DNA of 64,000 nt from Sulfolobus sp. S-194. GTDB taxonomy: Archaea; Thermoproteota; Thermoprotei_A; Sulfolobales; Sulfolobaceae. Under the pieces are notes generated by a model. The model worked only from the letters and a program-made list of their open reading frames with translations. It did no database searches and was not told where the DNA came from. The position numbers were made by a program, and so were the translations under genes. The stretch lies in assembly GCF_012222305.1 (NCBI RefSeq), contig NZ_CP035730.1, positions 868,001 to 932,000 of the forward strand, read 5' to 3'. Of this stretch, positions 26,149-29,515 are shown piece by piece (position 1 is the first letter of the stretch; the number at the start of each line of letters is the position of its first letter).

Positions 26149-26579
26149 AAGAAACTTTTGATTTTAATGCTTTATAAGCCTATCTTATGTTAGGTAGTCT
26201 TTTTTCATAGCTAGACAGTTTTTAATAAGTCCAATGATAAATTTGGTTATTAGACAAGGTAACGAACTATACTTTGTAAAAAACTTGGCATGATAAACTG
26301 TAAAAACAAAAAAGAAAAATAATTTTAGTAAGCTAAAAAAATCACATCAATAAAATTTTGATTTTTAACGTCGTTAAAGTTCGAAATTCGCACTATATCT
26401 TATAATGTATATAGGGTATTTTAAACAAGTCCTCATATCTAACTCACCTTTTCTCTCTGAAAGGGTAAAGGGTTCACCTCATTAATACACTCTTAAATTT
26501 AAGGGATGAATCCTTTTTCGTGTTAATAGAAATCTCTTTTTTACATCATGTTTATGAAGAATTTTTCTTATATATGATT

Positions 26580-26710
26580 ATCCCTCGCACCGATGTGAGC
26601 TATGCCCAAAAGAGTGAAGGTGATTGTGGAGATATGAGCCCTGTGCTGTTGGCTCGAAGGAGTCTCATGACCCACCTAAAAGGTGGTTGAGGGCTAAGTC
26701 CCCTATATTT
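26580..26710 (+). ncRNA. Candidate structured RNA (possible IS605-type transposon end/omega RNA)
   Basis: By my count 63 of 120 bases at 26581-26700 are G or C, far above the AT-rich surroundings, a known mark of structured RNA in AT-rich thermophiles. Consecutive hairpins are visible: ctcgca/tgtgag (26584-26599), gagcc/ggctc (26636-26655), ccacct-aaa-aggtgg (26672-26686) and aggg/ccct (26690-26704). The plus strand also encodes a 38-codon frame (26574-26690) containing CGDMSPVLLARRSLMTHLKGG, which could be the tail of a lost TnpB gene. Either a free ncRNA or a decayed IS605-type right end would fit. The strand is provisional. Confidence 0.45.
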
Positions 26711-26851
26711 GATCATGATTGAATATAAAATGAGCGAAAATTAAAGTGTAAGGACAAACAGGCATAAAGAGGACTATAGACTCGTTACATTAACTCGCTT
26801 AATTCCTTAAAGTCAGGGTCCTACAAATTGGAAAAGGTTCCATGTAAAGGA

Positions 26852-26880: not shown

Positions 26881-28266
26881 ATGGATTTAAATGTAATTTT
26901 GAAAAAGTTTTCTGAATTTAATTATGTTGAGGTAAGAGAGCATAAAATAAATTCTACTCACTTCTTTATCATTAATGGTTATCCTGCTGGGTTAGCTAGC
27001 ACTATTCATTCTGGTTATAGTGTCAGAGCATTTAAAGACTCTGCTATGTACTTTACTTCTTCTTCTAATTTTGAAGATCTGTCTCCTTTATCTTTTTCTC
27101 TAAAAGAATGGGAAAAAGGCTACTCTACGGATCAAAGAACAAGTGGGGAATATGTAGTTAATGAAAAAGAGAAAATTAGTGATGTGTCGCTTGAGGAGAA
27201 ACAAAAAATTTTAGTTGAAATTTCTAATAATCTAAAAAATATAAATATTAACTCAAAGATAGTTTCTATTAATTTTATTTATTCTGAGTCAATAGAGGAG
27301 AAGAATATTTTGTTTGAAGATGGCACTACTATTCATGGTCTAGTACCAAGGATTAATGTATCAGCAAGTGTTTCAATGGTTAGTGATAAGGCTAGCGCAA
27401 CATTTTATGAGGAATTTGGAGGTAGTGGAGGTTTTGAATTAATAAAAAATTGGGATATACAAAATACATTAGCTGAGAAGATCAGAAATGTTGATGAAGT
27501 GCTTACAAAAGGTAAAGGAGTTACTCCAGGAAGAAAAGATGTAATATTTAGTAATATGTTAACAGGTATAATGGCTCATGAATCTGTTGGGCATCCATTC
27601 GAGGCTGATAGGGTTTTGGGTAGGGAATTTGCTCAAGCGGGTTTAAGTTATTTAGTAAACAGAAATTTTGGTGAAAAAATTGGTTCTGATATTGTTAATG
27701 TTGTTGATGACCCAACTCTTCCTAACAGTTCTGGATTTTATCTAATTGATGATGAAGGTATTAAGGCTAGGGCTAAGTTTTTAATAAAAGATGGAAAGAT
27801 AAATGAGTTACTACAAGATCGTTTTTCGGCATACAAATTCGGTGTAAGTAGTAATGGTTCGGCTAGGGCTGCGAATTTCGATAGGGAACCTTTAATTAGA
27901 ATGTCTAATACTTTCTTTATGCCTAGTAATTTCACATTTGATGAGCTTCTTGAAGATGTTAAGGACGGTATTTATCTAAAATCCTATATGGAATGGAATA
28001 TCGACGATTTAAGAATTGGCCAACGCTACATAGGTTTGGAGGCTTATGAGATTAAAAATGGTGAAATTAAAGAACCATTGTTGTTCCCAGTCATTGAAGG
28101 TACGACTTTTGAATTCTTATCTTCAATTGACGCTATAGATAACACTTTAAAGTTTTATTACGGTACTTGTGGAAAAGGAGACCCAGATCAAGGTATACCT
28201 GTTTGGCTAGGTGGGCCTAATATGAGATTGAGAAATGTTTCTGTAAAGGTGAGAGGTTATGAATGA
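26881..28266 (+). CDS. tldD: TldD-type metalloprotease subunit
   Basis: 461 residues. The zinc motif HESVGHPFEADR (HExxxH, near residue 238) identifies the catalytic TldD subunit. The C-terminal zinc-binding region carries the TldD ending (FYYGTCGKGDPDQGIPVWLGGP), with the Cys that serves as third metal ligand. With TldE it forms a heterodimeric protease; in bacteria it trims microcin B17 and related peptides and unfolded short peptides. It overlaps tldE by eight bases, so expression is coupled and in 1:1 ratio. Confidence 0.93.
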   Translation: MDLNVILKKFSEFNYVEVREHKINSTHFFIINGYPAGLASTIHSGYSVRAFKDSAMYFTSSSNFEDLSPLSFSLKEWEKGYSTDQRTSGEYVVNEKEKISDVSLEEKQKILVEISNNLKNININSKIVSINFIYSESIEEKNILFEDGTTIHGLVPRINVSASVSMVSDKASATFYEEFGGSGGFELIKNWDIQNTLAEKIRNVDEVLTKGKGVTPGRKDVIFSNMLTGIMAHESVGHPFEADRVLGREFAQAGLSYLVNRNFGEKIGSDIVNVVDDPTLPNSSGFYLIDDEGIKARAKFLIKDGKINELLQDRFSAYKFGVSSNGSARAANFDREPLIRMSNTFFMPSNFTFDELLEDVKDGIYLKSYMEWNIDDLRIGQRYIGLEAYEIKNGEIKEPLLFPVIEGTTFEFLSSIDAIDNTLKFYYGTCGKGDPDQGIPVWLGGPNMRLRNVSVKVRGYE

Positions 28267-29515
28267 GGAACTAATTAAGTTAATGGAAAATTTAAAAGGC
28301 TTTGATGAAATTGGCGTTCTTCAAGTCAGGAGTAGGAAATTGTTAGTTAAGTTTGTTTACAGTGAAATTGTAGAAGTTCAAAGGCTTGTGAATACTGAAT
28401 TAAATGTCATAGTAAGAAAAGGGAATAAATATTTAGCAGTATCTTCAAATGGTGATATAGACGTTGAAAAAATTAAGGAAATGTTTAATGTAGTTAAAGA
28501 GTCTTTCTTAACACCAGTTTTTAGTGATAATGACAGAGAGTTAAAATCTGTTAGTTATTCTGATCTAAAGGATATTATTGAGAAAGGCGATATAAGTTCT
28601 ATTGCTAAAGATATTTATTCTTCCGAGTTTCCAATATCTGGAATATTTGAGGTAAATGAAAATTCTATCTCTTTAGTTACTTCGAAAGGTTTTAATGGAC
28701 TAACTGTGAAATATTCAGCGGATGGTTACTTCAGGGCTTTTAATAACAACTATTCCGGTCAATGGGCTTTCTACTCAGATTCTTTATCACCTTTGAAGGA
28801 TAGTATAAAACAAGCTAATGTCTTAGCTTCAATAGATGGAGAGGCAAAAGTTTATGATGGAAGATACGATGTGATACTTTCACCGCTTGTTGTTGGAAAC
28901 TTGATGAGTGACTTCAGTTATTTTGCTTCAGCATTCAGTGTATATACCGGTTCATCATTCCTTTATAACGTAAAGCAAGGTGATAAGATTACTAGTGAGA
29001 GATTAAGTATTTACGATGTTCCTAATAAGTTAGGTACTAGAGAATTTGATGATGAGGCTACATTTACGTACGATAAACCCCTAATAGAAAATGGTATATT
29101 TCAAACGTTGCTTTATAATAATGAGCTGGCAAAATTAATGAATGCTAAGTCAACTGGAAATGCTGGTATTATTAATCCAACTTCTTTCGGAATTGAGGTT
29201 AAGAGTGGGGATGTGAAGTTTGATTCTCTTCTTTCTGGTAATGTAATCTTTATCAATAATAATTGGTATACTAGGTATCAGAATTACTTAGAAGGAGCTT
29301 TCTCAACGGTTTGTAGAGATGCTGTAATTGTCTACAAAGATGGTAAACCCATAGGTAATGCTGGAAGGATTAGGATTTCTGATTATATTCCTAGAATATT
29401 GAAAAACATAGAAGAAGTTTCTAAAGAGAGTTTTGCTGTGAAATGGTGGGATGCTCCATTACCGACAATAGCTCCCTTTATTTTAGTTAAGGATGTAAAT
29501 ATAACTAGGGCTTAG
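28259..29515 (+). CDS. tldE: TldE/PmbA-type protease subunit
   Basis: 418 residues of the PmbA/TldE family, the non-catalytic partner of TldD: it has the family fold but no HExxxH. Typical segments are VYDGRYDVILSPLVVGNLM near 198, SIYDVPNKLGTREFDDEATFT near 250 (with the DDEG-like turn) and the C-terminal APLPTIAPFILVKDV. It covers the TldD active-site cavity in the heterodimer. The start overlaps the end of tldD by eight bases. The two genes form a clear two-gene operon with a single promoter before tldD. Confidence 0.92.
   Translation: MNEELIKLMENLKGFDEIGVLQVRSRKLLVKFVYSEIVEVQRLVNTELNVIVRKGNKYLAVSSNGDIDVEKIKEMFNVVKESFLTPVFSDNDRELKSVSYSDLKDIIEKGDISSIAKDIYSSEFPISGIFEVNENSISLVTSKGFNGLTVKYSADGYFRAFNNNYSGQWAFYSDSLSPLKDSIKQANVLASIDGEAKVYDGRYDVILSPLVVGNLMSDFSYFASAFSVYTGSSFLYNVKQGDKITSERLSIYDVPNKLGTREFDDEATFTYDKPLIENGIFQTLLYNNELAKLMNAKSTGNAGIINPTSFGIEVKSGDVKFDSLLSGNVIFINNNWYTRYQNYLEGAFSTVCRDAVIVYKDGKPIGNAGRIRISDYIPRILKNIEEVSKESFAVKWWDAPLPTIAPFILVKDVNITRA

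Follow-up and report, generated by a model that had tools for sequence, protein, structure and literature searches.

The window examined here, a 64-kb stretch of a Sulfolobus chromosome, contains a block with an unusually high content of G and C, for which a first-pass annotation had offered two readings: an undescribed noncoding RNA, or an RNA from a transposon end that overlaps what is left of a TnpB COOH-terminus. The question raised by this locus is which of these it is. Our recount gave 64 G or C residues for the 120 positions 26583–26702, close to the 63 counted earlier, compared with a G+C content of 32.4% for the whole window, and no other 120-mer sampled across the window equalled this value. 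The block is the centre and right-hand part of a decayed copy of SMN2, a Sulfolobus miniature noninverted repeat element, seen here as a dispersed repeat of ~259 bp (26503–26761, plus strand), and it is not a new class of RNA. Its odd composition is thus accounted for as that of transposon debris. More specifically, we put the probability at about 85% that the block corresponds to the right part of a degenerate SMN2 mini-transposon, one that derives from an ISC1926-type IS607 element and carries a predicted omega-RNA scaffold.

A dispersed repeat of the SMN2 family

With a 155-nt probe from the block, we detected 8 copies in its own 2.79-Mb chromosome at E<=1e-14. Matches came from 22 of the 60 related genomes compared, mainly from the same family, with up to 14 per genome among the matches listed. 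A longer query placed the limits of the repeat at ~26503 and ~26761 (the match spans window positions 26501–26762). The copies start with GGGCTGAATCC and finish with GGGACAAACGG, and outside these limits the flanks of different copies are unrelated. The BLASTN comparison with relatives that had been suggested earlier thus yielded both dispersed copies and tnpB-bearing parents.

The window element, aligned with ~45 other copies, is 259 bp long, dispersed and devoid of a long ORF, in agreement with the ~250 bp by which SMN2 is defined. It is 82% identical from left end to right end to another copy (L003), which is itself 93.3% identical over its full length to the annotated SMN2 of the virus SMV1, and it is therefore a member of this family. 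Intact relatives carry the annotation "MITE-SMN2" in SMV1 (HG322870); the elements of SMV1 and of plasmid pMGB1 (NC_021914; PMC3839810) belong to the same family as the window copy, which compared with them is older and mutated. The possibility of an undescribed noncoding RNA gives way to a block that forms part of an already named transposon family.

Several individual copies deserve mention. The intact SMN2 elements on SMV1 (L164, 1501–1753, corresponding to HG322870 33927–34177) and on pMGB1 (L165, 342–595, NC_021914) have both a complete promoter-like left end and a complete scaffold, and any guides read from them would consist of viral or plasmid sequence. A sublineage in one genome, G030 (L005, L027, L129, L130 and L135), shares a 9-nt deletion (GGGCTCGAA) that erases one scaffold hairpin, yet it has multiplied. 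The same old, degraded insertion with the same flanks was found in two species (L143 in G002 and L156 in G003), and some SMN2 copies must therefore be older than the species split.

Parent element and retained segments

Both ends of the window element match both ends of ~1925-bp (1.93-kb) elements in the related genomes G002 and G003, in which the left-end matches lie 1.9 kb from the right-end matches. The left end (GGGATGAATCCTTTTTCGTGTTAATAG..., 26503–26539, plus strand) is 86% identical over 42 bp to those of the full-length elements. The full-length elements encode a TnpA of 213–218 amino acids with HTH_17 and Resolvase domains, a serine recombinase, and a TnpB of 412 amino acids with a Cas12f1-like TNB domain. 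The closest PDB entry for this TnpA is that of ISC1926 (6dgc, 279 bits). Judged by these sequence similarities, the parent is a member of the IS607 family, of the ISC1926 type. The earlier reading as a transposon-end RNA overlapping a TnpB remnant was thus right in substance, the element being of IS607/ISC1926 type, and the right end is unambiguously that of a known insertion sequence, an outcome that had been named in advance as speaking against a novel RNA.

GG dinucleotides are reported at the termini and target sites of IS607 elements, including ISC1926 (eLife study, PMC6188088). As in IS607, GG is present at the borders of SMN2 elements, in 38–42 of 43 copies at the left and in 66–67 of 69 at the right. 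At the left, GGG directly precedes CTGAA (38–42 of 43 copies per position), and the GG expected under the IS607 exchange rule corresponds to 26503–26504 of the window (plus strand). The right border of the window copy reads CAGG and is therefore ambiguous by one base.

Compared with complete elements, the mini-elements retain the left end as far as TTTTTATAT upstream of tnpA and have lost tnpA and most of tnpB. From the part of tnpB that encodes the zinc finger they keep a hairpin homologous to CCAACCCGATGGGGGCAATGCCCCAAGGGTTGG; the next ~88 nt of tnpB are absent, and at the right the last ~45 codons are kept, reaching ~10 nt from the right border. The window element likewise keeps the parental ends without tnpA and without tnpB, save for the hairpin of the zinc-finger region and the final ~45 codons. 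Its left part includes a presumed archaeal BRE/TATA promoter region (26530–26546, plus strand; consensus AGAAATCTTTTTATAT, here mutated to AAATCTCTTTTTTACAT) that is common to the regions upstream of tnpA and to the mini-elements. The homologue of the tnpB hairpin, identified by alignment with tnpB, lies at 26582–26620 on the plus strand (consensus pairs 15-53 to 33-37) and is partly broken. The remnant of the tnpB tail (26627–26750, plus strand) has two frameshifts, a lost G near 26650 and an extra C near 26700–26703; one plus frame reads ..VGSKESHDPPKRWLRAKSP.. compared with LGSKESHDPPKRWLRAKSLHSIMNDHKM in intact TnpB, whose tail, aligned to the plus frame of the window, also reads LGSKESHDPPKRWLRAKS. 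A 38-codon frame had been proposed as possible remains of the TnpB COOH-terminus. The tail of tnpB does overlap the block, but the frame named is on the wrong strand, a minus-strand ORF (26600–26716) unrelated to tnpB. The right end (26698–26761, plus strand), which is conserved in full-length elements, comprises a terminal helix, GTCC..CTATATT/AGTGTAAGGAC, around TTGATCATGATTGAA and ends with GGACAAACAGG.

Constraint on the tnpB tail and consensus fold

We scored synonymous conservation in seven complete tnpB genes as identical codons where the amino acid is identical. It reached 92% in the tail that contains the scaffold codons and 86% in the surroundings of the hairpin, compared with 67% in the rest of the gene; the best other upstream window of 45 codons gave 78%. 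RNAalifold analysis of 49 distinct mini-elements gave a consensus energy of -84.3 kcal/mol, compared with -53.1 ± 4.9 kcal/mol for column shuffles, a difference of ~6 SD. Several pairs varied on both sides, as at alignment pair 16-52 (TA 15, CG 14, TG 13) and pair 161-199 (TA 41, CG 4), and in one copy (L148) the apical stem has been swapped for a different complementary stem, CCTTGTGGAC/GTCCACAAGG. Copies with a broken reading frame (L009, L148, L137, L013 and L011) kept 35–37 of 38 scaffold pairs. The last codons of tnpB are therefore under an additional, non-protein constraint in complete elements, and the fold is common to the mini-elements. An open tnpB tail is still present in most fresh mini-elements, and some of the structural conservation may stem from recent descent from coding copies.

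According to the consensus and its per-pair counts in the 49 copies, the putative scaffold core of the window copy (26637–26695, plus strand) consists of a long-range pairing (26637–26643/26688–26695), a hairpin (26651–26655/26660–26664) and an apical stem (26672–26677/26681–26686). Only one of four hairpins previously proposed for the block, that at 26672–26686 (CCACCTAAAAGGTGG), belongs to this consensus. The proposed hairpin at 26584–26599 is superseded by a larger one, in which 26582–26591 pair with 26612–26620 and, further inside, 26596–26600 with 26604–26608. Those at 26636–26655 and 26690–26704 could form locally, in competition with the long-range pairing and with the terminal helix at ~26698–26709/~26744–26755. 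Folding of the single sequence was unexceptional for the plus strand (z = -1.44) and somewhat unusual for the minus strand (z = -2.91); the case for structure stands on the family alignment, not on the folding of the window copy.

In IS200/IS605 and related systems, an omega-RNA is known to overlap the 3' end of tnpB (PMC10640517, PMC11061315). The constraint and the fold described above look as such an RNA should, and the retained part of SMN2 is predicted to correspond to the omega-RNA scaffold of TnpB. The Rfam/Infernal search suggested for the block was run and assigned it to no family: across the window there was no hit at the gathering threshold and no credible one at a relaxed threshold, and RAGATH-18 was not matched. 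A scan with ARAGORN found no tRNA or tmRNA, and a scan for sigma-70 promoters and terminators, with models ill-suited to archaea, returned nothing beyond chance. Matching of scaffolds to a resident full-length element of the same genome (98–99% in G002, 97% for one copy in G024) was set aside as evidence, the pattern not being general, as in G003. Separately, synonymous conservation was also raised, 84% compared with 67%, at protein columns ~210–240 of tnpB (L063, 971–2209, and the other full-length genes).

Mobility, putative guide function and alternatives

The L003 element is precisely absent from an otherwise alignable site in the genomes G024, G022 and G016, all three from a single related genus, and the SMN2 of pMGB1, which lies inside plrA, has an empty counterpart in four related plasmids. 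The empty sites of these two independent insertions read GGGG/AGGG (L172, L173, L176, L166 and L167); both exceed by two bases the length expected if the flanks were joined by strict exchange at a single GG, a difference for which simple one-GG exchange does not readily account. For the window copy, the element is absent from the corresponding region upstream of tldD in two related species, in both of which the flanks are too diverged to yield a clean empty site. A G003 match to a further copy (L031) covers the insertion site, with flanks that fail to align up to the junction.

SMN2 elements were most likely moved in trans by an ISC1926-type TnpA and encoded a stand-alone guide RNA with its guide in the right flank. 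In intact copies, the presumed left-end promoter would transcribe the putative scaffold directly, and the guide would be the DNA immediately to the right of the element, past ACAAACGG. GG sites would be the targets at which a resident ISC1926-type TnpA mobilises the element. Once loaded with SMN2 RNA, a resident TnpB would cut sites that have lost the element, so that retention of the element would be favoured. We offer tentatively, as one possibility, that intact SMN2 elements, including the insertions in SMV1 and pMGB1, are stand-alone guide-RNA genes: the omega-RNA made at each insertion would take its guide from the insertion site itself and direct, in trans, a TnpB of ISC1926 type encoded on the chromosome, so that the gene-less element would defend its own locus.

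An account that we consider less likely than not is that the mini-element is mere transposition cargo, its tnpB 3' end kept for the long right end needed by the IS607 TnpA or through recent descent, with no RNA made or used. The terminal helix and right-end motif do lie near the border where TnpA must bind, and recent deletion from coding copies explains part of what is retained. Such an account leaves aside that a hairpin more than 130 nt further upstream in tnpB was kept while the intervening ~88 nt, up to the scaffold, were deleted, that the promoter region was kept as well, that frame-broken copies still hold the scaffold pairs, and that synonymous constraint covers all of the last 45 codons, beyond the extreme end. 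When SMN2 was described on pMGB1 in 2013, the passages concerned called IS200 its likely mobiliser (PMC3839810), and pMGB1 does carry IS200/IS605 elements with a Y1 TnpA and TnpB. Mobilisation by such a Y1 transposase is nevertheless very improbable: both SMN2 ends are homologous to those of serine-recombinase elements, the borders obey the IS607 GG rule, and the parent lacks the Y1 HUH TnpA by which IS200/IS605 is recognised, its TnpA being a serine recombinase. We give still less credence to an independent host noncoding RNA, regulatory or catalytic. The block is GC-rich, folded and unmatched in Rfam, but it is multi-copy, homologous to the 3' end of tnpB and missing upstream of tldD in two related species, and its transposon borders already contradict such a role.

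Among known systems, SMN2 shares with ISC1926 and its relatives the left end, the right end and the GG borders, and differs from the ~1925-bp parent with its serine TnpA and TnpB in that the window element, at 259 bp, has no tnpA and only a small remnant of tnpB. Like the IS607 element ISFba1, whose TnpB uses a reRNA with RAGATH-18 (PMC11061315), it has a right-end guide RNA, here predicted, and a G-rich left flank. The ISFba1 reRNA lies outside the tnpB ORF, whereas the SMN2-family scaffold lies inside its last ~45 codons, with the stop codon ~10 nt before the element end; it is recognised by no Rfam model. According to the passages on a PATE-like, end-only IS605 element of Halanaerobium (PMC7290912), that element is also gene-less and keeps the left end, a tnpB tail (the last 58 nt) and the whole right end; those passages present it as a single copy and contain no RNA analysis, in contrast to the multi-copy, IS607-derived SMN2. 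SisTnpB1 of Sulfolobus islandicus (PMC10640517) is likewise a Sulfolobales TnpB with an omega-RNA, predicted in our case, at the tnpB 3' end, but it is of the IS200/IS605 type with an AT-rich TAM. The TTTAA to the left of the window copy was rejected as such a TAM, given that other SMN2 copies do not share it.

The SMN2 family itself was already known; parentage, RNA-level constraint and the promoter-plus-scaffold anatomy are added here. For an archaeal mini-element that already has a name, the likely parent is corrected from the IS200 of PMC3839810, whose passages on SMN2 contain no description of a guide-RNA scaffold, to IS607, and many gene-less elements with a promoter region and a putative TnpB guide-RNA scaffold are brought to light. 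Our search of the open-access literature found no paper joining ISC1926 with a MITE and no report of gene-less TnpB guide-RNA elements, which is weak evidence of absence. If the mini-elements are transcribed, guide RNAs acting in trans from chromosomes, viruses and plasmids can be tested in Sulfolobales.

The window copy itself is probably an inert relic, mutated and in a genome without a cognate TnpA/TnpB pair. Of the 55 consensus pairs it retains 48, whereas the best copy of its genome (L026) has all 55. Mutations are also present in the TATA-like box and the right border of the window copy. In that genome, the best TnpB is 32% identical to the cognate TnpB in full-length comparison, and the TnpA proteins, of another IS607 subgroup, are only 48–50% identical to the cognate TnpA; with no TnpB above 32% and no TnpA above 50% identity, we expect neither movement of the element nor use of its guide there at present. 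The other IS607 subgroup might still act on the element in trans. Cognate TnpB is found in G002, G003 and other relatives such as G016 and G028. The predicted guide position of an omega-RNA from the window element, after the right border as for TnpB generally, is 26762–26781 on the plus strand (flanking DNA GCATAAAGAGGACTATAGAC); a search with 16 nt of this putative guide found one other site at <=1 mismatch, G000:2376502, which is not preceded by GG. The element lies between a divergent gene of 757 amino acids and a tldD-like gene starting at 26881. From a reading of the sequence, the overlapping gene pair downstream (26881–28266 and 28259–29515) resembles tldD and pmbA/tldE.
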